A stretch of DNA of 64,000 nt from NCBI RefSeq assembly GCF_947623445.1, contig NC_135241.1, forward strand, positions 6,016,501 to 6,080,500, given 5' to 3'. The stretch is from Clavelina lepadiformis (lineage: Eukaryota; Chordata; Ascidiacea; Aplousobranchia; Clavelinidae). Of this stretch, positions 4,331 to 46,163 are shown one piece after another; the first letter of the stretch is position 1; every line of letters starts with the position of its first letter. Both the position numbers and the translations under genes were made by a program. The notes below the pieces were generated by a model, which was given only the letters and a program-made list of their open reading frames with translations, did no database searches and was not told where the DNA came from.

Positions 4331-5026
4331 GCTTCTATTTTCGATTAAACTTCAGGCTTTGTTTGGGCTGTGCATATTTAGGTTATGTTTAAAAAGGTAA
4401 GGTAAATAGACCAATCCAATTCAGTACCAACCAAAAGCATATATGCAAAAAAGGTTTTGAAAAAACTTTCAGACCCCACTCATGAGCCGTAAAGTTTTCA
4501 CTTAAAAATTGGAAAATTTTCCAAACTGGAAATTGTGAGAAACTTAAATTTATAGCACTGTGAGAAATTAAAAATATTTTTTTTTAATATTCTTGTAAAT
4601 ATGACATCAGCAAACATCTTTAAAAAGTATTTTTCCATTGTGTTTAGTTACTAAAGCAGGATTGTACCTCTAAAATTTGCACAACTTATAGTTCGTATAT
4701 ATGCCACATTTTGGATTTTGTTCATCATAAATTTAGGCTACGGTTCTGAAGCCCAATTTGTTGCTTCTATAATACTGAGCGATTATATATACAGCACACA
4801 ATGAATGCAACAGCAAAAAGTGATAAGAAAATTGTTATCAAGATTTTGCCATAAACTAAACCCGACAATACAATTTAGTGATTTTTAGAGTAGTAATGTT
4901 GACCTCAACTAGTATGGTTTGTCAATAGCATTTGGCTACAGCTCTTTTCTAGTCTGATGAACACTCATTTGAGTATTTGACTAGTAATAAAGGTTATTTC
5001 CTGTTCCAGCATTCTTACATTTAAAT
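4331..5026. other. intergenic, upstream of SDR1
   Basis: AT-rich sequence without a recognisable gene. CTGTTCCAG at about 5001-5009, 18 bp before the SDR1 start codon, resembles a splice acceptor. In other SDR copies a similar TTTCCAGCATTTATTT-like block precedes the ATG. It could be the acceptor of a 5'-UTR intron or of spliced-leader trans-splicing; the sequence alone does not decide. Confidence 0.35.
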
Positions 5027-6563
5027 ATGGAAAGGTGGGTAGGTAAGGTGGCTTTAATTACTGGGGCTTCAGAGGGCATTGGTGCTTCAATAGCTGAAAA
5101 ATTAGTTCAGAGTGAAATGAAAGTGATTGGTTGTGCAAGAAATATAGACAAGCTCAATAAAACTGCATCCAAAATCAACAATGTTGGGCCTGGTGAGATG
5201 TATCCGTATCAGTGTGATTTAAATGAAGAATCTCAGGTACTTGGAATGTTTCAGTTCATCAGAGAAAAGTTTAAAACTCTGCATGTATGTGTAAACAATG
5301 CTGCTGTGATCCATGACACGTCAATTTTGGAAGGAAAAACAGAAGTATGCTGTTTGTTTGTATATTGTACTTGTAGAGGAAAGTGCTATGTTACAGGCCT
5401 GTAAGAGGTGTTAATTTAAAGTTCTGTGTTACTATATCTAACTAGCAACTATATCTAACCAAAGCGCTTTGCTGGGCCGAAAAGATATCAATTTTTTAAA
5501 TGAGTCCCGCACATTGAATAATTATGTGATAAAGTCATTGCTCTTAGCCTAGTTCAGATAGCGTAAATGGATATTAGAGCTTTATTTATTATTTTGTGGC
5601 CCATACCTTACACACCCGACTTGTTGTTTTCTCTAGTACAGCACTTTGTTAATTGATTGTAATTTGTAAGTCATTTCTTTGTGGTAAATTTGTCAGATAC
5701 TAAACATATGACTTGAACAAAGTATGTAAGGTATGGGCCACAAATAATTTCAGGAGACTTAAATATTGCTAACTTAGGTATGTATATGTATAAAAAAGAC
5801 AAATAGTTTGTATTGTTTCTTAATTGTATGTGTGTCATGTAAAATTAGGCACAAAACTGTATGTTTAAGGTTGAGTAATTAATTATTTTATAGTATGCTT
5901 GACGATTAAATACTCAATTGTTTAACTGTGTATAATATCATACAAACGCTTATTGACAGGAATGGAAACATATGCTGAATGTCAATGTATTAGCAGTACT
6001 GATATGTTCAAGGGAGTCAGTTAAGCTCATGAGGGAGTCAGAAGTGGATGATGGGCACATCATTAATTTGAACAGTGTGGCTGGGCATCGCATTGTCCAT
6101 AAACCTCTGTATGGTATTACAAAGTTTGCTTTGAGTGCAATCAACCAGGGTCTTAGGGTTGAGTTGATTGGAGCAAAAACTCATATCCGTTCAACACAGA
6201 TTTCACCTGGATTTGTGGAAACCTATCTTTTGGACAAGTTAGTAAATTTATACATGTTTTCCATGAAATTCTATGTCGAGAATGCAGTGGTTTTTTTTAT
6301 ACAGTATGATATTTGTATTTATATTGTGTTCTTTACAAATACATACAGTAAGTTTAAGGCATAAAAAATTGTTATTCAAATCATTTTGTTTCCCAACCTT
6401 ATCAAGAGTTTATCCTGGACAAGGAAAATGTGATAAGCTATTTTCGGAAATGGAATGCTTGAAGACAGAAGATATTTCTGAAGCAGTTTTGTATGTTTTG
6501 GGATCTCACCCTCGCGTTAATGTCAATGATATCATCATTCGACCAACAGAACAACTTGAGTAA
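5027..6563 (+). CDS. DHRS11: DHRS11-like short-chain dehydrogenase, SDR1 (3 exons, intact)
   Basis: Coding exons 5027-5344, 5960-6237 and 6407-6563 join in frame (phases 0 and 2, GT/AG introns) to 250 residues. The start MERWVGKVALITGAS mirrors the MERW start of vertebrate DHRS11 (260 aa). Classical SDR motifs are present: TGASEGIG cofactor loop, CARN (NADP-type pocket), NNAAV, catalytic Ser in NLNSVAGHR, catalytic YGITK, and the C-terminal NDIIIRPTEQ typical of DHRS11. The family is cytosolic NADPH-dependent 3-/17-ketosteroid and carbonyl reductases; the substrate here is inferred only. It is the most diverged of the five intact copies in the window. Intron 1 (615 bp) holds a small inverted-repeat MITE. 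Confidence 0.93.
5592..5747. mobile_element. MITE, inverted repeat in SDR1 intron 1
   Basis: TTGTGGCCCATACCTTACA at about 5594-5612 is repeated in inverse as TGTAAGGTATGGGCCACAA at about 5725-5743. It forms a roughly 155-bp foldback unit. No ORF. The superfamily is unclear. Confidence 0.7.
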
Positions 6564-8307
6564 AATTCTTGCATTTACTATGAAAACCTAAATATTGTCG
6601 GTTGTTATTTTTACCATATGTTCTATTTGTATCACATTTCTTTAGTTTTTATGTAATCAAGGATTTTTGTTCGGTAACCAAGCTCCAAGTAATAATTGCA
6701 GAAGAACATCATACAAATGGTTATAATAGAAAGTTTATAACACAACTTAAAACTTACTATATATCATGATTGTAGTAAAAATAGTGTTGCCATTTGGCAA
6801 CTTTTAACCTCGCACAGTGAGTCTCTGATGTTTACTGTAACTTTGTGTGTCGTGTTGGTACTGTGTGTTCCTGTTATTTCAGGAGTCATTTCCTGTTAGC
6901 TGTATGCATTTGCCAGGAAATGCAAGTTAATGATCCAATAATAATTAATTAATTAATAAGTGTTTTAATGATATGCACTTTCCTTGCCACACATACTTAC
7001 GTTCAATTTTGCTTATAATTACAGCTTGTTTATACTGTTTTAAGTGTAAATGATGTAGTGCAGAGAATCGACTGACCATGTACCAAACTTGTCGTACTAC
7101 TGACGGTACCAACTACCTTATCATACAGTATATAACGTATTAATCCATAAGTGTGTCAGCTTTTTTTAAACTTTTGGGCTGTATCAATATTCCATTTGGG
7201 TTCGATTGTGTCAGAAATTTCAAGAAAGTTGCTGCTTGTTTTTTACTGTTCTACTCATTTCTGCATGGTACCTAGTTGTATTGCTTGCGGTTGACTTTTT
7301 CATACTTAAAATGTTTCAGTTCACGGTTACCCTAGATTTGTGGCATACTTCTTAATGGACAAATTTGTGCTACAAGTAGAAGTAATACTGACATTTTAGT
7401 TTTTGAAGTTCAAGGTTGTTCCGATAAATATGGAAAAAGATTTCTTAAATGATGACTTGACTTGGTTTGTTATTGTGTGTTGATTAGCAAAAATGTTGAG
7501 AAAAATTTTTATGTAGGCTTTATTGTTCATTAATATTGCATACTTTCTTACTAATGAAATGTTTTTGTATTTCTCACATGTCTCTATTACATTTCGCACA
7601 CACAAACACTGAAAACAATAGAAAACAGTTATTAACCTGATGTAGTAATACCGTGGGGTAGTACATTATACCCGTATTTGCTTTTGTTTTTTGGACTTTA
7701 ATGTTCATTATGCATACGAGTTGTAACTCCCAACACTTCATTACATCTATTTCATTAGGATTGCTACATACTGGTAACAAAGCTTCAGAAACGCTTTTCA
7801 TTCTCACTCTCATTTTTCTATTAATTATGCAAGTTTTCTTACGCTTAAGTCAACGTCAACAGATAAGCACTTAATGCTTTTGTATTATGGTGTTTATGCA
7901 AAATGTTTTACAAATGCAGTGTTTAATTAAAGGATTGTGTTTCATGGGCCAAATAATTTTTAGTTTTGGTAAATTTAAACATATATACATAAAATAGTAT
8001 TTGATGCAGAATGTTGTATATGCAAGCGAAATGCTTGAAAATGTGATTGTTTGACATTGTATTACACCAATGCCAAAAATGTATGGACTGTTTTTGTTAA
8101 ATACTATATGTTAATAAATAATAATAATCAACTAATGGATCATAAACAAAACTGTGAAGATTGTGTGCTGAAACGTTTTCCTGGAGAACACATATCATTA
8201 CTGTTGTTAACCTCCATTGTTAACAAATATTTTGCAGCTAGGTGAATTGGATTTGTATATATAGTTGCAATGATCAGAACAGGGATTGTATTGAAATACT
8301 TTTAACA
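6564..8307. other. intergenic between SDR1 and TRAPPC3
   Basis: 1.7 kb of AT-rich sequence. I see no coding exon and no clear repeat. TATTTTGCAG at about 8227-8236, some 70 bp before the TRAPPC3 ATG, looks like a splice or trans-splice acceptor. Confidence 0.4.
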
Positions 8308-8850
8308 ATGTCAAAGCAACCTGGACGTGGATTGGAAAGCAGAAAACTTGTTGGGGAGTTGTTTACATTAACGTATGGTGCGTTGGTCTCCCAACTAATT
8401 AAGGATTATGATAACGACGATGAGATAAATAAGCAGTTGGACAAAATGGGTTACAATATTGGAATACGCTTGGTTGAAGATTTCATGGCTCGCTCAAATG
8501 TTGACAAGTGTCAAGATTTTCGTGAAACAGCGGAAGTTTTGTCAAAGATGGCTTTTAAAATGTACTTAAATATTTCGCCGACAATAGCAAACTGGTCACC
8601 AGCCAATGACGAATTTTCATTTATTCTTGACAACAATCCTCTGGTGGAGTTTGTCGAACTTCCAGATGATCATCCTGACCTCAATTATTCTAATATCTTA
8701 TGTGGTGCTATTAGGGGAGCACTGGAAATGCTGCAGCTTGAAGTGGAAACTTGGTTTTCTAAAGATGTGCTGAAAGGGGACAATATTACTGAACTAAGAG
8801 TAAAATACATTAAAAGACTTACAGATGCTTTGCCTGCGGGTGAAGATTAG
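8308..8850 (+). CDS. TRAPPC3: TRAPPC3 (Bet3), TRAPP complex subunit 3
   Basis: A single exon encodes 180 residues, exactly the length of human TRAPPC3. Landmarks: SRKLVGELFTLTYGALV, NKQLDKMGYNIG, FMARSNVDKCQDFRETAEV, NWSPANDEFSFILDNNPLV, FVELPDDHPDLNYSNILCG and the closing LPAGED. The Cys in NVDKCQDF sits where mammalian Bet3 carries its palmitoylated Cys68. Bet3 is a core subunit of TRAPP I/II/III, tethering factors and Rab1/Ypt1 exchange factor at ER-to-Golgi and Golgi membranes. An in-frame ATG-less extension lies upstream; the ATG at 8308 matches the family N-terminus. The lack of introns is unlike the neighbouring genes: it could be the native state or an intact retrocopy. Confidence 0.96.
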   Translation: MSKQPGRGLESRKLVGELFTLTYGALVSQLIKDYDNDDEINKQLDKMGYNIGIRLVEDFMARSNVDKCQDFRETAEVLSKMAFKMYLNISPTIANWSPANDEFSFILDNNPLVEFVELPDDHPDLNYSNILCGAIRGALEMLQLEVETWFSKDVLKGDNITELRVKYIKRLTDALPAGED

Positions 8851-9301
8851 TTGCTCATACTTATTGGATCTCATTGCTTGTATTTATGAGCTAATCTTCC
8901 GAAGAGTCTTGGTTGACGGCTGCTCGTGAACATACCCTATTAATAGTGATGTGATTGCAAGATCACATGGTAAATGTTTCAACAGTTTCCTGACTATTGT
9001 TATCAAGGCTGCGCAAATCAAAGTTATCCAGTGACTTTCCCATGTTATTTAACACATAGTTGAACATTACAAAATTTGTATGGTTCTTCTGTAGATAGAT
9101 TTTTGAACATAATCAGGCGTTGCAGTTTTGAAGACATGAAAATATTTTTAAATGTAATCAAACTTAAAAAAACAATGTTGTTGACACTTGGAAGTGAAAT
9201 ATTTATGTGTTTTGTATCTGTAATGACTTTTTAGTTGCATGCTTAGAACATCACCAATCATAGCTGCCAAAAACTGGAAAGTAAACAATTTAATTACTCT
9301 T
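8851..9301. other. intergenic, downstream of TRAPPC3
   Basis: AT-rich, no gene. The last 50 bp or so (9250-9301, around ACATCACCAATCATAGCTGCC) are paralogous to 44845-44905, upstream of SDR5. They therefore belong to the ancient duplicated block that also gave the SDR2 pseudogene. Confidence 0.5.
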
Positions 9302-9302
9302 A

Positions 9303-10530
9303 AGGGGATATGGAATCATTCTCAACCTATTTTCTAAAAAAGGATAAAAATACGCTGATACCGAAAATATAAAAGAAATTCTCTACCTTTTTCGTCAACA
9401 ACCTATTTGGCGAAACTGTTTTAAAACATTGTACCGAGAACGGATGTGACGTCACCAGAGTTGCTGGCGTTCGATCATGGTTCAAGTGCATATCAGTTCA
9501 ACGGAAAGTTGCTGTTGCAAGACTTGTTTAGGCGTATTTAGTGCGCATGTTGAATAATTTTTTATATTATTTCATTAACAGATGATTGACTAATTGTAAA
9601 AGGCGTTTTTAATTAAACAAATCTTGCCTGTATGAGCATTGTGTGGCCTTAGCTCTAGGTAGTATAAGCCTATTATTAAGAAACTATGTACAATTTTATT
9701 TGGCTTTCGGCTTTTCAATGTTGTTCATAAATGCAAACTTTCAGGTTCTACCAATACAAAGTATTGCGCAGTTTGCAAACAGTCCAACCCAGATCATTAC
9801 ATCTATTTTTAAAAACGAAACTTGTACCTACAATTCAAAATACTTTCTCACTCAACTGGTGAGTCTATTGTAAAACAAGCTGACATCACAAATTAAATAC
9901 TTGAGGTCTAATATCCGAAGTAACTAATGCAACACATGTTTCTGTACTTGACCGTAAGGTTGATCCTATCTGCCTACTGTTCTAGCTGGTGACTAGCTTC
10001 TTTTCTCTCACGGTCCTACTTGACAATCTAGCCAACCCTATTTAAGTCACTCAGGAAACCGTTATCTTAATGTTTTGTTACATTTGGTAGGATCTGAAAG
10101 TTTGCATTTATGAACATTAAACTGAGAGCTGAATAGGCCTAATCAAACTGTATATAATTTCTAAGGCTAGGCTTAGACTACCTCGAGCTAAGGCCACACA
10201 ATGAACATACAGATAAGACTGGTTTAATTAAAAACGGCTCTTACAATTAGTCAATCATCCGTTAATGAAAAAACATAAAAAATTATTCAACATGCGCACT
10301 AAATTCGCCTAAACAAGTCTTGCAACAGCAACTTTCCATTGAACTGATATGCACTTGAACCATTATCAAACACCAACAACGTTGGTGACGTCACATCCGT
10401 TTACTGCAAATTTTTTTAAATGGTTTTGCCAATAAGTCTTTAACGAAAAAAGACAGAAAAATTTCTTTCAGATCTTCGGATTCAGCAAATTTTTTTATTT
10501 TTTTAGAAAATACATTGAAAATGACTTTAG
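9303..10530. mobile_element. long-inverted-repeat DNA element, non-autonomous
   Basis: Arms of about 400 bp (9303-9750 and about 10095-10530) are diverged inverted copies. Shared blocks include CGGATGTGACGTCACCA, GGTTCAAGTGCATATCAGTT, TTGCAAGACTTGTTTAGGCG, TTGACTAATTGTAA and GAAAGTTTGCA. The left terminus sits in TTAAGGGGATATGG, the right in CTTTAGTTTCCCTTTGA (inverse TCAAAGGGAAACTAAAG). This TTAA plus GGG form recalls Kolobok-type ends but is degenerate on the right. No transposase is visible. The paralogous locus at about 44900 reads TTAATTATTCTAAAGCAGAC with no element, an empty site. Confidence 0.7.
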
Positions 10531-17540: not shown

Positions 17541-20364
17541 CATAGACACCTTAAATAGAAGGACTGGTAACTTCTATGCTCGGTATCTGGAACTTGGGTC
17601 CCAAGTTGGAACTTGGGTCCCATCATAATTTGTGTCAAATACATGGTAAAACCTTCATTCTGGTGTCTCTTGGGGGGTTTTGAAGGGTGAGGAATTACTT
17701 TTTCATACTTTTAACCTTCTACAAGGTCATCTGAAGGTCATCTAAAGGTCAAATCACGAAAAAATAGTCCAAAATCACTCAAAATATTGCATATTTTCTC
17801 ACTTAAACAACTGAAACACACAGTATGTTCCCCTGTGACTGAATTAAAATGTATTCATGGACAGTTTAGCCTGAATATTTCAACACGAACAATGAAATTT
17901 GTGAAACAACAATAAAAAACAACAACAAACAACAATGAAATTTGTAGAAATGAGTAATCAAAATACTTGTTGGCATACTAAAGATACTTGTTCAGTTTTT
18001 AGTAGAGAGTTTTTCTTTTCTTCTCAAACAGCCGAGTTGTCTTTCTTTGTCACTGTTGTCAAGCACAAATGCTTTCAAAAGAATGTTTGATAAAGTAAGA
18101 CATGCTCCTTGAATTACAACCATTGGACTATCAATACGACGCAAAGCATGGCTGAGATGAGCTCGGCAGCAATGCAAGTTGCACTTACCAAACAGTTTAT
18201 AGGCTGAGTGTACAAAATGTACTGTTGAGAGTAGAGGTACAGTTAGTCCACCTCTATTTAAGTTTGTGAGAAACTCCGAATTAATCCGATGGTCGTCATC
18301 ATTTTCAGTTTCGATACACAAGATATTAGCTGGATATTTGCGTTCCAAATATCCAGCTAGAAAAATACATTTATGCTTGACACTGTCATTAGATTGCACT
18401 AGGTCTTCAGTGTCAGCAATGGTGATGTCAAATTGATCATCATCAATGCAAATGTTAGAGGTGCAAGGCACATCATGAGACTCGCACGGAGTTGACTCAT
18501 ATTTTAAAAGTGCATGGAGATTTTTGGTTTTTGCAGCTGCCTTGATATCTACAATGTCAATATAGAAATTACCTCCACTGCGTTGTCTGGCTTGACCAAA
18601 GAACTTTTCAAGGGCCTCATCAGCAAACACACCAGGTAGAACGTAGATGAAGTTGTGCTGAGTCAGTAGCAACTCTGCGGCTTCGATGTTAGCGTCAATG
18701 AAGACTTTACCAGGGCCATGTAATTTACCATAAACTGCAACATTTGTATTGCAATTATCACCTACACAAGAAATTATACTACCACCAGCATTTTTTACCG
18801 CTACTAGAGCTTCCAATATAATTTTCTTGAGTTGATCTGAATTAAGTTTTGCAACAGGGTAAATGCGTAGTATATATCTAGGGCCACCAAAATGGCAGAC
18901 AACTTCAATCACCAAAGCATCTGTTGCAAGAACTTCGGTATCACCAGAACCATTTTGCGCATAACCAACAACACGACCACCTGAGTACCTAAGTGTTTCT
19001 GTGAGCTTCACTTCATCAAAAAGAATGTTGACGAGACACTGCTGAGGTTGAAGCTTTTGGAAAAGTTGCTCTAAGTTTTCATCATGGAAACTACAGGAGA
19101 GTAGTTTTTTCAACAGTTCCACTCTCGGTAAAACAATTGAACCGGACTTTCGTACCATTTTATATGCAGCTGGAGAAATGTTATGAAGTTCGGCAGCAAG
19201 AATATAAAGATTTTTGTCAAAACGTCGACCTTCTGGAGGAGTGAGCAGTAACTGTAACTGAGCATAAATAAACTGGAAATGAGGCGAATCAGAACAACTC
19301 ATGCTATTCAATTCCTCTACAGCACTTTTTAGATAGTCTGTATCTTTGAATTCATACTCAGTAATGCATGACAGAATTTTGTCTAACTGTGACCATTTAC
19401 TAAGAAGGCTATTCTTTTGCAGACAACCAGCTTTGAAAAAATATGTTTTAGGTATGTCCTTTCCATTTTTCTCAACACATTTAAGATGCAAAAATCCAAA
19501 TGACGATTGAACGCATTGAAAATGAAGAAATTGAATAACAGAACGTCCTTTTGCATCAGTTTTAGAAATGTAAATGTCATCACTATCACAAAAAAAAAGA
19601 TGATCCTTTGAGAAATGCTGCTTGATTTCATTACAAAAAGAAAAAAAGTCAGCTATCTTATCCAGGCCTTCAGTACGGAATCGTTCCTTTTCAGCTCTCA
19701 CCTCTGCTGAAGCAGTTCTAGGCCTAGTTCTGGGTGCTGAGGAGACCTGCTTTAAGCATGACTTTAAAACTCCAGGGAAAATGGACGGTGGTTGGCTTGG
19801 TCTTTTTCCACCTTTAACTGAAATCCATTTACAGTCAAAATGATTAGCACAAGCATAGATCTGCTTAAGCTGTAGCAAACTAGAACGTTCATTTGGCATG
19901 GCATCAATCCAGCGGTTTCGTTCTACTTCATCAGTTGGAAATGATACCACTTTAGAGTACGGTTCCTCCCTGTAATTGCCTCGACAACCATATACATTAC
20001 ATTTCTTAGGCATTGTGTGTTATTAACAGAGACCCCTGAAAAAACTTTGTTCCGATTATGAAATAGAAAAAAAGAAAAGTTGCTTTAAAAAATTACCCTA
20101 CTCTATCGGCATTGCCATAGCCTATAATTGGTTTCATCGTCACATGTGCTTATTTATCAGCTATTGAAGCAGTTAGAAAGCTTTAAAGTCACATATGCTT
20201 GTCTGCATGCCTTATTTTAAATATTTATACAGTTCTTTTCCAAAATTCAAAAGATTCGCGGCACACCTGAGAATCTGTGACGGCGCACTAGTATCTGTGA
20301 TTGGTACCCAAGTTCCGTAACCCGAGAGTGCGAGTTACTAGTCCTTCTATTTAAGGTGTCTATG
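17541..20364 (-). mobile_element. P element, apparently complete, with 8-bp target duplication
   Basis: The 2,824-bp element is bounded by CATAGACACCTTAAATAGAA (17541) and its exact inverse at 20364. The repeat extends to about 32 bp with a single mismatch (GGACTGGTAACT versus GGACTAGTAACT). The 8-bp duplication CGTGTAAC lies on both sides (17533-17540, 20365-20372), the size used by P elements. Subterminal GGAACTTGGGTNCC boxes occur twice on the left (17589 and 17608) and once on the right (20303-20316, inverse). The left pair forms a perfect 17-bp palindrome (17591-17607). A single uninterrupted transposase ORF fills the interior. Identical duplications, nearly identical ends and an open ORF indicate a recent insertion. 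Confidence 0.93.
17992..20013 (-). CDS. P-element transposase with N-terminal THAP domain (THAP9-like)
   Basis: An intronless 673-aa protein. Residues 1-85 form a THAP zinc finger: CNVYGC supplies the first Cys pair, YACANHF the C-x2-H half, and PSIFPG resembles the closing THAP box. A basic/coiled linker follows. The RNase H-like core is recognisable from FDEVKL (first acidic position), GYAQNGSG, VGDNCNTN (second acidic region) and ALEKFFGQARQRSGGN, which matches the P/THAP9 pattern near the third acidic position. It would bind the element's subterminal boxes and cut and paste the element, using GTP as cofactor in the Drosophila protein. It is shorter than the 751-aa Drosophila transposase, and the extreme C-terminus (ERQLGCLRRKEKLSTKN) may be trimmed. 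No frame break seen. Confidence 0.92.
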   Translation of the reverse strand: MPKKCNVYGCRGNYREEPYSKVVSFPTDEVERNRWIDAMPNERSSLLQLKQIYACANHFDCKWISVKGGKRPSQPPSIFPGVLKSCLKQVSSAPRTRPRTASAEVRAEKERFRTEGLDKIADFFSFCNEIKQHFSKDHLFFCDSDDIYISKTDAKGRSVIQFLHFQCVQSSFGFLHLKCVEKNGKDIPKTYFFKAGCLQKNSLLSKWSQLDKILSCITEYEFKDTDYLKSAVEELNSMSCSDSPHFQFIYAQLQLLLTPPEGRRFDKNLYILAAELHNISPAAYKMVRKSGSIVLPRVELLKKLLSCSFHDENLEQLFQKLQPQQCLVNILFDEVKLTETLRYSGGRVVGYAQNGSGDTEVLATDALVIEVVCHFGGPRYILRIYPVAKLNSDQLKKIILEALVAVKNAGGSIISCVGDNCNTNVAVYGKLHGPGKVFIDANIEAAELLLTQHNFIYVLPGVFADEALEKFFGQARQRSGGNFYIDIVDIKAAAKTKNLHALLKYESTPCESHDVPCTSNICIDDDQFDITIADTEDLVQSNDSVKHKCIFLAGYLERKYPANILCIETENDDDHRINSEFLTNLNRGGLTVPLLSTVHFVHSAYKLFGKCNLHCCRAHLSHALRRIDSPMVVIQGACLTLSNILLKAFVLDNSDKERQLGCLRRKEKLSTKN

Positions 20365-20372
20365 CGTGTAAC

Positions 20373-20485
20373 TCACTTATTAAGCCAGGATTTCTCCACT
20401 CGGGCCCCATGACCCCTGATTGGGGCCATGTGCAGTGGTGTCACTAGTGAGCTATAGTGTAGTACTGCAGCAGGAGGCAATAGGG
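20373..20485. other. spacer between P element and hAT MITE
   Basis: Unassigned 113 bp. CAGTGGTGTCACTAGTGAGC at about 20431 looks hAT-terminus-like but has no partner. GCAGGAGG (20470-20477) may be the left target duplication of the foldback element; CAATAGGG (20478-20485) is that of the MITE. Confidence 0.5.
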
Positions 20486-20812
20486 CAGAGGTCGGGAACC
20501 TATGGCTCGCGAGCCAGATGTGGCTCTTTTCATGATGGCATCTGGCTCGCAGATAAATCTAAGCTGGTATTTCTTAGCTCGATTGTTACGAATAAAACTT
20601 TTTCTGTAATTTTAAGTCTCATTAACAGTAAGAAACATGTTATTAAAGAGTAAATTCAGGTATTTACCGTAGTCTAAAGTTGTTGGTTTTGCTTAAAAAT
20701 GAACACGTTAGTTGCATTAATTGTTGAAAAATATTATATGGCTCTCACGGAAATACAATTAAAAATATGTAGCTTTCATGGCTCCCTTAGCCAAAAAGGT
20801 TCCCGACCCCTG
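20486..20812. mobile_element. hAT MITE (CAGAGGTCGGGAACC), 8-bp duplication
   Basis: 327-bp element beginning CAGAGGTCGGGAACCTATGG and ending GGTTCCCGACCCCTG, with CTCGCGAGCCAGATGTGGCT near the left end. The 8-bp duplication CAATAGGG is present at 20478-20485 and 20813-20820. It lies right at the left tip of the foldback element. Confidence 0.9.
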
Positions 20813-20861
20813 CAATAGGGGAAGTGATCCATTTATGACCTGCAAGCCAGGCTTCTAATTC

Positions 20862-21800
20862 AGAAGCCTGGCTCGAGATTACAGAGGTCATGGGTTTTGT
20901 AGATTGAAGCCTGGGTCGGGATTACAGAGGTCATGGCTCGTATAAAATGAAGCCTGGCTCGAGATTACAGAGATCATGGCTCGTATAAAATGAAGCCTGG
21001 GTCGGGATTACAGAGGTCATGGGTTCTGTAGATTGAAGCCTGGGTCGGGATTACAGAGGTCATGGCTCGTATAAAATGAAGCCTGGGTCGGGATTACAGA
21101 GGTCATGGGTTCTGTAGATTGAAGCCTGGCTCGGGATTACAGAGATCATGGCTCGTATAAAATGAAGCCTGGCTCGAGATTACAGAGATCATGGCTCGTA
21201 TAAAATGAAGCCTGGGTCGGGATTACAGAGGTCATGGGTTCTGTAGATTGAAGCCTGGGTCGGGATTACAGAGGTCATGGCTCGTATAAAATGAAGCCTG
21301 GGTCGAGATTACAGAGGACATGGCTCGTATAAAATGAAGCCTGAGTATAGATTGGAAGGGTCATGCCTCGTATGAATCGAAGCCTGGGTCGAGATTACAG
21401 AGGTCATGGGTTCTGTAGATTGAAGCTACAGAGGTCATGGGTTCTGTACATTGAAGCCTGGCTCGAGATTACAGAGGGCATGGCTCGTATAAAATGAAGC
21501 CTGGGTCGGGATTACAGAGGTCATGGGTTCTGTAGATTGAAGCCTGGGTCGGGATTACAGAAGTCATGGCTCGTATAAAATGAAGCCTGGGACGACATTA
21601 CAGAAGTCATGGCCGGTATAAATTGAAGCCTGAGTATAGATTGGAAGGGTCATGCCTCGTATGAATCGAAGCCTGGGTCGAGATTACAGAGTTCATGGGT
21701 GCTGTAGATTGAAGCCTGGTTCGAGATTGGAAGGGTCATGGCTCATATAAAATGAAGCCTGGGTCGACATTACAGAAGTCATGGGTTAGGCTATGTAGCC
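20862..21800 (+). repeat. 43-bp tandem array, left arm of foldback element
   Basis: About 21 units, each starting GAAGCCTGG and containing GATTACAGAGGTCATGG. Two main unit types share the first 31 bases or so and end either CTCGTATAAAAT or GTTCTGTAGATT. They often alternate, giving an 86-bp higher-order period. A third type (AGTATAGATTGGAAGGG) recurs twice with an identical neighbour, suggesting block amplification. One unit near 21421 is partly deleted. Confidence 0.95.
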
Positions 21801-22532
21801 TATGACTGGAAAGTTCACAGCTTTTTTTACTAAAGGTTTGATCGACAATAAAGAGGTCATGCCTAAAAAGGCTGGTTTGAAATGAAATAGATCATGTTTT
21901 TTAATTAAATCCTGTATCACTAAGTTTGCGTTGTGCAGTAAATTATCATACATTACCTATATTACGGAAATTAAGCCCCACAAATTACACACGAAGTTAA
22001 ATTGAATGCCACAGGAATGTTGAGTTATGCAAAACCACAAATACATTATGCAAGTACATGATAAAATTATTGTTGAACTGCTTATTTGTGGTGTTTCTGA
22101 TAAAATGCCTGCTACCAATTACTTTTTTTCTCCTCACATGTTGATTACCCTATTGTCTTTTGTTGTACTTTACAGGTATATAGTGATTTGCTTAGCTATT
22201 GAAGAACATAAAAATGGAGTGGTTTGACCATACATTATTACTGCATGTTAGGATTTTTGATGCAGACCATTTCACGTTGCTCCTAGGATTGTGAAATCAT
22301 TCACGTGACCCACGTTCAATTGGGAAGTCTCCTGACTGCATGAGTTAAAGAAAACACATTTACAGATGAATGTATTTGTAGTGAGGAAATTGTTTAAAAG
22401 TACTTTCTTCAACACCTTCCTTTCCGCTGATATGCTTTAATTCAATAAATCATTTACAGTAACGCTTGCCTGACTTATAATTGTACCACAAACAGATTAA
22501 GAACTGGAAAGAATTTTATTACAGTACATGAA
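21801..22532. other. 3' side of the Ulp1-PHD gene inside the foldback element
   Basis: AT-rich sequence between the left tandem array and the stop codon at 22533, probably 3' UTR plus spacer. An ORF at 22027-22227 (+) is hydrophobic but resembles nothing and is probably chance. Confidence 0.4.
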
Positions 22533-24978
22533 TTAAATTGTGCAATGTTTGCATAAGAACTGTTCTTTTTCTGCCGGTTCAGGAGAGCAGGATTCGTGTA
22601 TCCAGCGGCAGCATTGATCACATGCATACTGAAAGAGAAATAGGCAAAGCAGTTTGATATTGCTGTAATAGAAGCCTTAATGTTATGACATTACATTGAA
22701 CAACTTCAGGCGAAAACTATTTACCCATGCAGTGCTCCTTGATGTTGTTTTCGAACAATGAACACAAAATTCGTCAAGGTTCTCTTCGTCTAAAAACAAA
22801 ACATGAAGTGAAATAATATTATTTTTCATTGAATTAATGGGACCCCAAATAAATTAAGCATGGACTTACCACAATGTCTAAGCAGCATATTTCCAATTGC
22901 AATGCGTATTGCATTACAATCTGTGGAAGCCTCTCTAAATTCTTGAAATTCATTTTTCATGTATTGCTGGGCAGCCTACATAAACATAACGTAGAAGTAG
23001 CTTTCAGTGGATAGGCATTTTCAAGTTTACAATATTTTGTCACATATAATCCAGAAAAATGTATAATCTCCCACATATGTCCACAGTCTAAATGTTCTAT
23101 GAATTGTAAAGTGCACATTAGCACTCAACTAGTAAAAGTCAAGCTCTTCTTCTACAATTATTATGCAATTGTGGTCTTACATACATATTGAACAACAAAT
23201 ATTATAGCTATAAGGCAAACTACCATGTGGCTGCATCGTTAGGGCGTAACAAGATATGAGTTAGGGGCTTAATCTTGTATGATTGAACACTTACCATGAG
23301 AGAGAGGGGCCCACAACTGTGGGAATCTTTTTGTACATTGTGGCTGTACATCACCACTTTTGCGTCTTCGTAAGATGAATTTGGTTGATGCAATTTCATG
23401 TTATGAAATTTCTGGAAGAATCTATTTACAATTGAAATATATCAGTACAGTATAAATACTTGTAAAGTACCGAACCCGAATTTTAAGCTCATGCGAGCCC
23501 GAGTGATAGGTGTGATAATATTACAAACATTGAAATTTGTTTGTGAAAGCACAAAGGTCCTTATTGACTCACTGTTGGGTACATTAAAATCCCATATGTC
23601 CACGGTATACCACCTGTGTATTTGTTAATAGTAATAAAACTTTTTTGTCAATCATTGGACAAATTTCATGTACCATTCCATGACAGATTACAAGCCAATG
23701 TTTTAATCACAGCTTCAGCTTACGTTAAATTAGTTGTAATGGTTGGAGCGATGGTCTTTTCCCTCCCAAGTGGATCATAAATAAACACTTCAGCGTTAGT
23801 AACATCAATTGCCTTCAAATAATGTAACGGTTAGGCAGATAGCTAGTGTTACAAATAATCTCAATACATTGAATTTGAATCTCACCAAAAACACCCAGTG
23901 TGCTCCAGTGTTTATCATAGTTACAACTGGTTTCATGAAACGCGCAGTTACCTAAAAACAAACTTCATAAACAACATTTAAAAAGGAGCAAATTATGGCT
24001 TGAACATACCCAGTCGTTATTTCTGCTGGTAAATCTTCCTTTGTGAAACCATAAAGTACCATACTGTGCTGAAACATTATTCCAATCCTCGTTCTTTGAA
24101 AGAAATTTTCAAACCACATGTGAATTCAAACGTGAAATACATACAATTCCAAAGTAAACCAATAACAACTGTATGGAGGTAGAATACCTTATATAATATA
24201 TGTTTTACACTACAGCACATTCACTACACTAAATCAAATACAACATGCTAGTTGTGGTGCTAAAATCAAGTTTAAAGTATATTGTTTTTCCTCAATTTTA
24301 CCTTATTTGTAAGCTGTGAAAGGGAATATTTCCTAATGTGAAGTATAAAAATTATATAAATGAAAATACCAAAGCATACCTCAATACATAAGGCTTCTAG
24401 TGCTGCATCAATTACCTAAAGATAAAGAGACATACCTACACTTAGCCTGTTTACATACAACCTATACCATGAAGAAAAATTATTAGATCAGCAGATTATT
24501 TCCGTGTGCACATATCATAGGTAGGGTAAGGTTTTTCAAAAATGACTAAGTACTGTTTAGGTTGACATTGTAATATAGCCCCTATGAGTATAATGACTGT
24601 AACAACAAGGGCTGCACATGCTCACAATATCATCGAGCCAATTGCTTCCTTGAAGAAGACATAAACTTTTTTTCTTTAAAACAACATTTCCAAAAACTGA
24701 TTCAACTCTGTCACCATCATGATGAGAACACCAAAGCTCTTCAATATCTAGTAAAGATTATAAAAGCATTGGGCATTCAGTTTCTACATCATGTAAAACA
24801 AACAAGCAAAATAAATTGAAATTTAAGCAATACTTAGTCTAATTTGTATGTAAAATTTACCCAGATATTTTCTCGGAATTAATTTTCTAGGTGATGGTTC
24901 TTTTTCAAATGATGAACTACTTGCCAAGAGCTCATCTGCAATTTCTGTACTTTCATTTTTCTCAACCGGTAGACTCAA
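22533..24978 (-). CDS. Ulp1-like (C48) cysteine protease with C-terminal PHD finger, 10 exons
   Basis: Exons on -: 24861-24978, 24626-24747, 24380-24415, 24010-24093, 23886-23951, 23724-23812, 23295-23421, 22870-22975, 22725-22789 and 22533-22628. All junctions are GT/AG and keep frame, giving at least 302 residues; the start lies further upstream and is unresolved. The Ulp1/SENP fold is recognised from SNWLDDIVIDAALEALC, then TGAHWVFLAID with the catalytic His codon at 23898-23900, IYDPLGREK with the Asp at 23774-23776, and QKDSHSCGPLSLM with the Cys at 23313-23315. The last two exons form a C4HC3 PHD finger: CVHC, CDQC, WIHESC and FLCKHC. C48 enzymes process SUMO or similar modifiers; PHD fingers read histone tails. 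Function in this element is unknown. Confidence 0.85.
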
Positions 24979-25279
24979 CTGGTAGACTACTATACTTTAC
25001 TTTACCAGTATGTACTGGTAGACTACTATAAGCTACAACCTATAATATTCATTTTTACGATTGCTTAATAATAAATTTAACCTGATACAGGCCTAGCCTA
25101 ACTTTCAATGCAGTCAAAACACATGACTTAAAATAATTCAATAGGCCTACACACTGACACAGTAATTTCTTTAACATTAATCAGCTTCCGCATTCTGCTA
25201 GCCTAGTTCTAAAAAAAAGCAAAAGAGCTCGACTGGGCTAACCTTCCTGCCTTCTGATTCAACCTATTTACCCTTTTCT

Positions 25280-25790
25280 GATATCGACCCAGGCTTCAAT
25301 CTACAGAACCCATGACCTCTGTAATCTCGACCCAGGCTTCAATCTACAGAGCCCATGACCTCTGTAATCCCGACCCAGGCTTCAATCTACAGAACCCATG
25401 ACCTCTGTAATCCCGACCCAGGCTTCAATCTACAGAACCCACGACTTCTGTAATCCCGACCCAGGCTTCAATCTACAGAACCCATGACTTCTGTAGCTTC
25501 AATCTACAGAACCCACGACTTCTGTAATCCCGACCCAGGCTTCAACTACAGAACCCATGACCTCTGTAATCCCGAGCCAGGCTTCATTTTATACGAGCCA
25601 TGACCTCTGTAATCTCGAGCCAGGCTTCAATCTACAGAACCCATGACCTCTGTAACTTCAATCTAATGAACCCATGACCTCTGTAATCTCGAGCCAGGCT
25701 TCAATCTACAGAACCCATGACCTCTGTAACTTCAATCTAATGAACCCATGACCTCTGTAATCTCGAGCCAGGCTTCTGAATTAGAAGCCT
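25280..25790 (-). repeat. 43-bp tandem array, right arm of foldback element (inverted)
   Basis: Inverse copies of the left-arm unit (CCAGGCTTCAATCTACAGAA, CCATGACCTCTGTAATC). About 11 full or partial units; nearly all are the GTTCTGTAGATT type, so the two arms have different composition. Several units are shortened to CTTCAATCTA...TGACCTCTGTAA. The array ends in the same hairpin and tip as the left arm. Confidence 0.95.
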
Positions 25791-25834
25791 GGCTTGCAGG
25801 TCATAAATGGATCACTTCCCCGCCTCGCAGGAGG

Positions 25835-26119: not shown

Positions 26120-26886
26120 CAGGGGTGGGCAAACTTTTTGTACTGAGGGCCACATTTGAAAAAATGTTGCAGCCGGGGGGCCGCACACTCTCATTACAAA
26201 GTAGGAAAATTTACCCGGTGTGTAAATAAACGCATATACATATTAAAAACAATTTTTGTATTTCACACTCAGTTACGTTTAAAGCTATGCAATCATTATC
26301 ACAAAAGTTAATGAGACTTGTGCAACTGTTTACAGTTTTTCACGATCTTCTGTAAATTGAGAGCAAGTTTACTGGTAGATATCTTCATAACATCACGCAA
26401 GTTGGTGTCTGTCAGCAAAGACCTGTTCTTCGATGTGTTTATGTTTAAACAAGAAAATGCTTGTTCGCATATGTATTTGGATCCAAATAGTGCCAAAAAC
26501 TTAGCAGCAAAGTTTTTTAAGTTTGGAAACAAATCGTCAGACAATGACTTGTAAAAGTCAGGCAGTGAATCTGACTTAAACTTCTCTTTCAAGTCATTAT
26601 TTGCTTGCAAATCCAGCAGTACCACCTGTAAATCCTCAGGACCCGAATAAACTTCTGTAGTATTTGTATTTTATGATCAAACAATGCGTGAAAAGTGTAC
26701 GGCTAGTTGCTGAGAGCATGTTACAATACATGCGCGACTGACATGTGTGTTTACGCACTGAGAGTGAAGAGAAAAACACACTCGTAAAGGGAATAATATT
26801 TTGTCATGTAACTTGTTTAATTAAAACAATAAGTGATGAGTAGGAGTTTCTGCAAGTGCCGGCGGGCCGTAGTTTGCCCACCCCTG
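26120..26886 (-). mobile_element. hAT element, internally deleted, with 8-bp duplication
   Basis: CAGGGGTGGGCAAACTTTTT at 26120 and its inverse AGTTTGCCCACCCCTG ending at 26886 delimit 767 bp. GGCTAACT duplicates the target at 26112-26119 and 26887-26894. On -, 26308-26625 codes for the last 105 residues of a hAT transposase (LFGSKYICEQAFSCLNINTS, KNRSLLTDTNLRDVMKIST), the dimerisation region. The catalytic core is missing, so the copy is non-autonomous. Same family as the fragment at 3318. Confidence 0.92.
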
Positions 26887-36532: not shown

Positions 36533-36673
36533 TACTTATTGGTGAATGAATCAACAATGTAATAAAGAAATTTAAATTATCTCATTCATTAACCACATTT
36601 TACAATTACATGTTTTTGTTCTTTTCCAGCATTTATTTCTATTATCATAAGCCACAATTTCGCTTCTAAAACC

Positions 36674-37685
36674 ATGGAAAGATGGATTGGAAAAGTAGCT
36701 TTAGTCACTGGTGCATCAGCTGGTATTGGAGCTGCTATTGTAAAAAAACTTGTCGAAAATGGAATGGAAGTGGTGGGTTGTGCTCGAAATTTAAAAGAAT
36801 TAAATGAGATAGCCACAAAAGTCAATAAAGCTGGCCCTGGTCATATGTATCCTTACAAATGTGATTTAGTTGATGAAAATCAAATCCTAGCTGTTTTTGA
36901 ATACATTAAAAAACAATTTGGAACGATTCACATTTGCATAAATAACGCTGCAGTTTGCTACCATACTCCCATGGTGTCTGCAGATACTGAGGTTTGTTTC
37001 TTTTTATGTTACGATTTTTACTTCAAATTTAGAATTTTAAGAGCAAAACCAAGTCTGACTAGTATGTAATGATTTTTCCAGCATTTGAAAGAAATGATCA
37101 ATGTTAACATTCTTGCCTTGTGCATTACAACTCGAGAAGCAATCACTTTGATGAAAAACACAAATATAGATGATGGACACATTGTCAACATTAACGGCAA
37201 CGCAGGGCACAAGATCTATTTTGAGACATTTTATTCGGCTACAAAATATGCTGTTACAGCACTCACGGAGGGTTTACGACAAGAGCTACGTGCTGCAAAT
37301 AGCCGCATTCGTGCAACTGCAATCTCGCCTGGCCTAGTGAAGACAGAACTTATGTATCGGTATGGTCTCAATATTTCTACTTTAAATATGATGAAAATTA
37401 GAAAATTGTATGACAATTAGTTCTATATAAACCTATACTTTTATCTTTTAACACATTTTTTTATGCGATGGTTGTAGACAAAAAGTAATCTTAAAAATTG
37501 TGATAAAAAATTTATAATATAACAGGATGCACAAAGATGATTCACGAAGTGTAGACGAGTTGTATGCCACAAAGCCTTCTCTACAACCTGATGATGTCGC
37601 CAATGCAGTTTCATTTGCTATTACATCTCCATCACACATGGAAATCAATGATATGCGTATAAGACCAACCGGACAATTGAACTGA
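36674..37685 (+). CDS. DHRS11: DHRS11-like short-chain dehydrogenase, SDR4 (3 exons, Ser-to-Gly)
   Basis: Exons 36674-36991, 37082-37359 and 37526-37685 give 251 residues starting [19 protein letters not shown]. The cofactor loop, CARN, NNAAV and FYSATKYAV motifs are all present. The loop that normally carries the catalytic serine reads NINGNAGHK instead of NINSMSGHK-like: the Ser codon position (37196-37198) is GGC, Gly. SDR5 and the SDR2 pseudogene share this. The end is IRPTGQLN instead of RPTEQ. The reading frame is intact with small introns (90 and 166 bp), so it probably makes protein, but classical SDR catalysis is doubtful. SDR5 is a near-identical copy made by the segmental duplication. 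Confidence 0.92.
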
Positions 37686-44833: not shown

Positions 44834-45152
44834 CTTACAACATCAACAATCATAGCGGCTAAAAACTGTAAAGTAAAAAAGTTAATTATTCTAAAGCAGA
44901 CAGATGTTGCTGTTGTCATAGAATGATAATGAATTTTGCAAAACTCATTTCATATAAACTTTGAATCAATCGTTAGAAAATAAGAAATTTAATGAAGAAT
45001 TCACAAAGTATACTTATTGGTGAATGAATCAACAATGTAATAAAGAAATTTAAATTATCTCATTTATTAGTCACATTTTACAATTATATGTTTATGTTTT
45101 TTTCCAGCATTTATTTTGTATTATCATAAGCCACAATTTTGTTTCTAAAGCC

Positions 45153-46163
45153 ATGGAAAGTTGGATTGGAAAAGTAGCTTTAGTCACTGGTGCATCAGCT
45201 GGTATCGGAGCTGCTATTGTAAAAAAACTTGTCGAAAATGGAATGGAAGTGGTTGGTTGTGCTCGAAATTTAACTGAATTAAATGAGATAGCCACAAAAG
45301 TCAATAAAGCTGGCCCTGGTCATATGTATCCTTACAAATGTGATTTAGTTGATGAAAATCAAATCCTAGCTGTTTTTGAATACATTAAAAAACAATTTGG
45401 AACGATTCACATTTGCATAAATAACGCTGCGGTTTGCTACCATACTCCCATGGTGTCTGCAGATACTGAGGTTTGTTTCTTTTAATGTTAAGATTTTTAC
45501 TTCAAATCTAGAAATTTAACAGCAAAACCAAGTCTGATTAGTATGTAATGATTTTTGCAGCATTTGAAAGAAATGATCAATGTTAACATTCTTGCCTTGT
45601 GCATTGCAACTCGAGAAGCAATCACTTTGATGAAAAACACAAATGTAGATGATGGACACATTGTCAACATTAACGGCAACGCAGGGCACAAGATCTGTTT
45701 TGAGACATTTTATTCGGCTACAAAATATGCTGTTACAGCACTCACGGAGGGTTTACGACAAGAGCTACGTGCTGCAAATAGCCGCATTCGTGCAACTGCA
45801 ATTTCGCCTGGCCTAGTGAAGACAGAACTTATGTATCGGTATGGTCTCAATATTTCTACTTTAAAGATGATGAAAATAAGAAAATTGTATGACAATTAGT
45901 TCTATATAAACCTATACTTTTATCTTTTAACACATTTTTTATGCGATGGTTGTAGACAAAAAGTAATCTTAAAAGTTGTGATAAAAAATTTATAATATAA
46001 CAGGATGCACAAAGATGATTCACGAAGTGTAGACGAGTTGTATGCCACAAAGCCTTCTCTACAGCCTGATGATGTCGCCAATGCAGTGTCATTTGCTATT
46101 ACATCTCCATCACACGTGGAAATCAATGATATGCGTATAAGACCAACCGGACAATTGAACTGA
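45153..46163 (+). CDS. DHRS11: DHRS11-like short-chain dehydrogenase, SDR5 (3 exons, Ser-to-Gly)
   Basis: Exons 45153-45470, 45561-45838 and 46004-46163 encode 251 residues beginning [19 protein letters not shown]. It differs from SDR4 at only a handful of residues (for example MES/MER, NLTEL/NLKEL, CIATREA/CITTREA, NVDD/NIDD, KICFE/KIYFE). NADP-binding loop, CARN, NNAAV and FYSATKYAV are conserved. The catalytic-serine position is Gly (GGC at 45675-45677, NINGNAGHK). Splice sites are canonical. It is the unit-2 product of the segmental duplication and shares upstream sequence back to about 45000 with SDR4, so probably also the promoter. Confidence 0.92.

Follow-up and report, generated by a model that had tools for sequence, protein, structure and literature searches.

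The subject of this report is a foldback transposable element in a 64,000-nucleotide stretch of the genome of the ascidian Clavelina lepadiformis (assembly GCF_947623445.1, contig NC_135241.1, positions 6,016,501 to 6,080,500 of the forward strand; this whole stretch is called the window, and coordinates refer to it unless a sister copy is named). Very probably, the element is a nonautonomous derivative, shortened by an internal deletion, of a foldback family that encodes a CxC4-type transposase together with a separate Ulp1-PHD helper protein. A first-pass annotation of the window had described a mobile unit built on an intact Ulp1-PHD gene and carrying no transposase. The lack of a transposase holds for the window copy but does not extend to the family, since sister copies carry a second, transposase-like gene (gene A) in addition to the Ulp1-PHD gene (gene B). 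The comparison comprised 21 copies, namely the window copy and 20 further loci of the 209-Mb host genome.

Termini, arms and mobility of the element

The window element has long inverted repeats with internal tandem repeats, which is the defining structure of the foldback class. The arms are inverted to each other and are both made of a 43-bp tandem unit, with 21.7 copies in the left arm (20863-21784) and 11.0 copies in the right (25284-25729, the remainder of the arm extending to 25776). A common tip with a hairpin is found on both arms (20845-20873 on the left and 25766-25794 on the right), and the left tip, as single-stranded DNA, folds at z = -4.6, with 0 of 200 shuffles folding equally well. 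In these features the first-pass annotation was accurate.

The ends of the element had been placed at 20818 and 25821, and these positions proved to be wrong. Comparison of the window with the sister copies locates the true ends at 20478 and 25826, where the element is bordered by an 8-bp target-site duplication (TSD), GCAGGAGG, whose left copy (20470-20477) is identical to the right copy (25827-25834) when a hAT-like insert near the left end is allowed for. The insert is a 327-bp nonautonomous element (CAGAGGTCGGGAACC...GGTTCCCGACCCCTG, 20486-20812) that is foreign to the foldback proper and is flanked by its own 8-bp TSD, CAATAGGG; a hAT affiliation is presumed from its terminal repeats and TSD length, which are in keeping with that family. 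Because the insertion duplicated CAATAGGG, the left end of the foldback is split in two: a first copy of the terminus at 20478-20485, with the CAATA end that is also present in sister copies, and a second copy (CAATAGGGGAAGTGATCC...) at 20813-20862 that contains most of the left hairpin. On the right, the hairpin and the true terminus (...CTTCCCCGCCTC) together occupy 25766-25826. The bases CAATA and GCCTC at the ends of the window element lie outside the tip that had been reported, and across copies the constant terminal bases are GAGGC followed by GGGGAAGTG at one end and CAATA followed by GGGGAAGTG at the other.

The foldback element is real and mobile and belongs to a recently active family, which bears out the earlier view of it as one mobile unit. 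Arm sequence has at least 129 matches in the host genome, the 29-base tip has 46 matches at no more than 3 mismatches (0 for a reversed-pattern control), and the CAATA end has 32 at no more than 2 mismatches (1 for the control). Both ends are visible in 17 of the 21 copies, only one end being visible in L009, L021, L022 and L024, and an exact 8-bp TSD flanks 15 of those 17. The two exceptions are L015, whose TSD has one mismatch, and L017, which has no TSD and whose second end is a weak match. Three copies on C1 (L014, L015 and L016, at 2.4, 3.5 and 4.0 Mb) have their flanking sequence in common and thus represent a segmental duplication and not separate insertions, and the 15 exact cases thus amount to 14 distinct sites.

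The gene carried by the element is also repeated. The last 160 residues of gene B have at least 163 genome matches, and the closest among the matches listed are loci of the foldback family, several of them already known by their foldback tips. No arm or tip match lies near the gene B matches at 3.16 and 3.43 Mb on C1, which form a mirror-image pair, or near the one at 21.79 Mb on C4, and the weaker gene B matches, among those listed, are PHD-only and lie in other repeats. No single-copy host gene for Ulp1-PHD was seen among the matches listed for this C-terminal search, so the findings that the first-pass annotation had named as fatal to the mobile-element view, unique arms and tips and a single-copy host gene, did not turn up. 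A further array of PHD-finger matches (about 40% identity) spans about 180 kb of C1 in the host genome (G000, C1:17709935-17890537), with a spacing of about 3.7 kb and on both strands; judged from these matches it is another PHD-bearing repeat.

An internal deletion in the window copy

The interior of the window element follows that of L009 at 99.75% identity over 3,195 bases, at which point the alignment jumps by 4,552 bases in L009. The segment that is absent from the window (L009 positions 4785-9336, about 4.55 kb) contains gene A together with the beginning of gene B, and it is because of this deletion relative to L009 that the window copy has no transposase. The deletion junction is marked by short similarity and by six filler bases (24972-24977), beyond which the stretch at 24978-25283, which in L009 lies upstream of the gene A ATG, is fused to the gene B remnant. 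Stretches other than those absent from the window copy are missing from L010 and L011, again relative to L009, and the gaps in the three copies have the look of internal deletions that arose independently. Such deletions usually result from interrupted gap repair, and the middle of the window copy may have been lost in this way. Aligned with L009 in this way, the window copy is a defective, internally deleted and nonautonomous derivative, and provides an example of an internal deletion passing for a captured intact gene.

The Ulp1-PHD gene

Complete gene B, in a corrected model, has 11 exons and encodes 385 residues. The ten exons of the window, which had been taken for an intact gene, correspond to exons 3-11 preceded by the final part of exon 2, as exon 1 and the rest of exon 2 have been deleted. 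The claim that the exons join in frame through canonical splice sites is right for the internal splice sites and for the 308 residues over which the frame is open, but the result is a fragment with no start, the first in-frame methionine being residue 132 of 308, inside the Ulp1 domain and just before the catalytic His. All exons are on the minus strand. The 3′ remnant of exon 2, left after the loss of exon 1 with the start codon, lies at 24861-24971 and is followed by exons at 24626-24747, 24380-24415 (36 nt) and 24010-24093. The next exons hold the Ulp1 His (GAHW, 23886-23951), the Asp (YDPLG, 23724-23812), the Gln and catalytic Cys (QKDSHSCG, 23295-23421) and the C-terminal part of the Ulp1 domain (22870-22975), and the last two hold the first half of the PHD finger (22725-22789) and its second half with the stop codon (22533-22628).

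The window exons are nearly identical to those of L009, whose full gene B matches the Ulp1 C48 family (PF02902) at 41.3 bits (E 2e-10, cut-off 20.7), while a single window reading frame scanned alone gives no C48 match. The His and Asp align to SENP1 (E 0.05, with the first gene model) and the QKDSHSCG motif was read by eye, so that the protease with its His, Asp, Gln and Cys stands as originally proposed. A 31-nt exon in the first model of gene B was rejected, since in seven older copies, of which two are alike, its reading runs into a stop at one shared codon; the stop is gone when the neighbouring exons are joined via another acceptor. The C48 score rose from 28.7 bits with the first model to 41.3 bits with the corrected one, and the rise is not from the correction alone because the first query was also without the last three exons.

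The PHD finger, which had been described as a complete C4HC3 finger, falls short of the Pfam cut-off but in the PDB matches the third PHD fingers of KDM5B (E 5.2e-6) and KDM5A (E 6.4e-4) with both tryptophans aligned. With the whole gene B protein as the query these matches weaken to 1.6e-4 and 0.016, respectively. The two aligned tryptophans are candidate cage residues for H3K4me3.

The putative transposase gene

Gene A, as read in L009, has eight exons, all bounded by GT-AG and in agreeing phases, and extends for 636 residues until the model runs out. Its protein matches CxC4 (PF18717) at 36.4 and 39.3 bits against a cut-off of 26.9, and Pfam associates this cysteine cluster with transposases of the Kyakuja-Dileera-Zisupton (KDZ) group. 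A six-frame search for the CxC4 family gave no match in the genome or in any control genome, the domain being split by introns here. A SWIM-like motif can be seen in gene A by eye only, and no Pfam match to the transposase domain of Mutator-like elements (MULEs) was obtained with gene A or the catalytic pieces.

Pieces of a putative catalytic region were found by genome search at three loci only (L013, L014 and L016). Two diverged relatives match one of these pieces at 59% and 56%; the 59% relative also matches the next putative catalytic piece, and the 56% relative has internal stops. Another relative of gene A, L034 (33-38%), is too decayed for reading. Candidate catalytic residues are the D of GDGNWK, the D of FISD and the E of AEQ, chosen on the model of HMGXB3-like proteins, which gene A may resemble in the order in which its motifs surround the CxC4 cluster and the putative D and E. 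With its multiple exons, zinc-finger-like motifs, CxC4 cluster and putative catalytic region, gene A is taken to be the transposase of the family.

Selection on genes A and B

The ratio of nonsynonymous to synonymous substitution rates (dN/dS) was computed for sister copies against L009. For gene B it is 0.34 in L014 (L016 being alike), 0.23 in L018, 0.36 in L023, 0.27 in L025, 0.23 in L026, 0.29 in both L027 and L028, and 0.12 in L021 (67 codons); shifted frames of four copies give values of 0.54-0.92 and 1.12-3.37, above those in frame. For gene A it ranges from 0.23 to 0.46 in L013, L014, L016, L019, L023, L025 and L028, with shifted frames of two copies at 0.59-1.70, and values of 0.49 in L010, 0.25 in L011 and 0 in L012 are based on very few changes. 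In six of eight older copies the divergence of gene B from L009 is greater in the exons than in the aligned introns (9.1 versus 5.9% in L018, for example), so the low gene B ratios owe much to high dS.

In a relocation control, each change was moved at random to sites with the same base and neighbours in 2000 simulations, using eight older copies for gene B and four for gene A. The 145 distinct changes in gene B include 85 nonsynonymous changes and 3 stops versus 105.5 expected, a number as low as this being reached in 0 of 2000 simulations. Among changes common to at least three older copies 25 of 50 are nonsynonymous versus 36.4 expected (0 of 2000 as low), and changes found in a single copy look neutral (57 of 79 versus 59.6 expected; 547 of 2000 as low). 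For the first three exons of gene A the union of 57 changes includes 30 nonsynonymous ones versus 40.5 expected (0 of 2000 as low); there a deficit is also seen among the private changes (6 of 18; 10 of 2000 as low), and it is less clear among the shared ones (15 of 27; 59 of 2000).

These counts bear on the possibility that Ulp1-PHD is a passenger, a fragment of a host gene that was captured and whose open frame reflects chance and youth. The truncation of the window copy, the neutral-looking single-copy changes and the excess of exon over intron divergence would all suit a passenger, as would the lesions seen in several copies: one stop in each of L014 and L016, two stops and a frameshift in L018, two 7-bp inserts in L026 and L027, two frameshifts in L028, and deletions and a stop in the L013 fragment. 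A passenger would not be expected to show the deficit of nonsynonymous changes among those shared by older copies, nor the rarity of gene B indels in exons (0, 0, 1 and 2 in four copies) relative to introns (5, 5, 9 and 8), and the C-terminal part of the gene recurs at many element loci among the matches listed; we therefore consider a mere captured fragment improbable. Since shared changes in gene B are constrained and private ones look neutral, the gene appears to have served the element lineage and not each copy, and such a pattern would result from a source lineage under constraint that gives off dead copies. The first-pass annotation had argued that open exons imply selection or recent spread, which is half correct. 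For the window copy they show youth, because it is 5′-truncated and 99.75% identical to L009; constraint on gene B is evident in the changes shared by older copies and does not extend to its private ones.

Weighing the interpretation

Genes A and B are same-strand neighbours that lie close together with B downstream, an arrangement that would also fit a single gene for a transposase with C-terminal Ulp1 and PHD domains. In L014, whether or not the likely last intron is removed, the frame of the last A piece runs into a stop upstream of the B ATG, which favours two genes over one; in L009 the phase in which gene A exon 8 ends is likewise incompatible with the frame before the B ATG, and there is little probability left for a fusion. 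That the arms are moved by the transposase of another family, with A and B as passengers, is highly unlikely: a P-element-like candidate adjoins the left side of the foldback (an open frame of 675 amino acids at 17992-20019, minus strand, that encodes a THAP domain and a TNP-like RNase H domain), P and hAT transposons generate duplications of about 8 bp (PMC3706591) and a transposase with THAP is known from the foldback-like Galileo (PMC4079207), but the THAP frame is outside the TSDs of the element, gene A and its pieces are inside several copies, and the first three exons of gene A are under codon constraint. The presence of a THAP protein is in keeping with an animal host, THAP being typical of animals.

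The interpretation of the window element as a deleted member of a family with a CxC4-type transposase and an Ulp1-PHD helper has several observations weighing against it. A complete set of gene A, gene B and both ends occurs in 0 of the 21 copies, and L009, on which the gene models are built, is without the putative catalytic segment of gene A and without the right tip. The KDZ catalytic domain (PF18758) is matched neither by gene A nor by the catalytic pieces when scanned separately, and the C2H2-like motif of gene A scores 17.5 bits, under the Pfam cut-off of 27. The PHD finger reaches at most 20.3 bits in Pfam, where the cut-off is 24, and 15.1 bits within the whole gene B protein. The splice models derive from sequence and cross-copy comparison, and the first gene B model had a false exon. 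To these are added the exon divergence of gene B and its stops and frameshifts in several copies.

Relationship to known transposon families

Among plant MULEs, the Kaonashi elements or KI-MULEs have an Ulp1-like gene with a transposase unlike the one here, and they are not known to have a PHD finger. The KDZ group shares with the present family a CxC-type cysteine cluster (CxC4 here, CxC7 in Zisupton; PMC12062965), an 8-bp TSD, a length also given for Zisupton and for one Dileera element (PMC12730594), and a multi-exon gene (PMC9297572). In contrast to KDZ elements, the family described here has no PF18758 match, and it has long foldback arms of a 43-bp unit and an Ulp1-PHD gene separate from the transposase-like one. 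A count of the term Ulp1 over the main texts of PMC12730594, PMC9297572 and PMC12062965 gives 0. Assignment to KDZ was rejected for want of a PF18758 match, although CxC4 and the 8-bp TSD fit. Elsewhere in the host genome (G000) there are 31 matches to PF18758, of which 21 are short, cover the same stretch and have nearly equal scores, and a separate KDZ family seems to be present.

Foldback elements such as FB, Galileo and Tetris have in common with the window element long inverted arms, internal tandem repeats and short TSDs, and most foldbacks are assigned, with exceptions, to the Mutator superfamily (PMC4079207). What sets the sister copies here apart is a gene of CxC4 type together with an Ulp1-PHD gene. 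Rehavkus also combines a minisatellite with a PHD finger (PMC6446971), but it is MULE-like, with a 9-bp TSD and the PHD finger in the transposase, whereas here the TSD is 8 bp, the PHD finger is on the protease and no Pfam match to the MULE transposase is found. A Mutator-like or Rehavkus assignment was rejected on these grounds, the TSD being 8 bp and not about 9 bp in the 15 exact cases. The same combination of foldback arms, CxC4-type gene and Ulp1-PHD gene was not found in searches of open-licence literature. The separate features have precedents, CxC clusters and 8-bp TSDs in KDZ elements, a minisatellite with a PHD finger in Rehavkus, and the arms in foldbacks.

Surroundings of the element

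Just right of the foldback, 26124-26200 resembles by eye the start of another hAT-like miniature element. Further away, three similar short-chain dehydrogenase-like frames on the plus strand (4991-5404, 36593-37069 and 45054-45485; Pfam was run on the first only) are apparently a repeated gene, and a plus-strand open frame at 8242-8850, in which one exon encodes an entire TRAPP-component domain, is possibly a retrocopy or an intronless gene.

Proposed mechanism and significance

Repeated binding sites within the arms have been described for Galileo (PMC4079207). In the present family the gene A protein would bind the repeated 43-bp units of the arms, and would cut and paste the element with an 8-bp stagger. 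The gene B product may act as a SUMO protease on the transposase or on silencing factors, held at H3K4-methylated chromatin by its PHD finger. The window copy would have been moved by proteins supplied in trans. A more specific proposal, which we offer tentatively and regard as somewhat doubtful, is that these elements form a non-Mutator foldback lineage with a two-part tool of its own for countering silencing or for targeting, namely a SUMO protease that is directed by a PHD finger reading methylated H3K4 and has been maintained by selection across subfamilies, and in which zinc fingers of the CxC4-type transposase read the 43-bp units. If the main interpretation holds, the family would connect the foldback architecture with a transposase of CxC4 type outside Mutator, and a eukaryotic transposon would gain an Ulp1-PHD helper gene that is under constraint. 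The family would then also provide a testable case of a mobile element that disturbs SUMO-based control or selects its chromatin.

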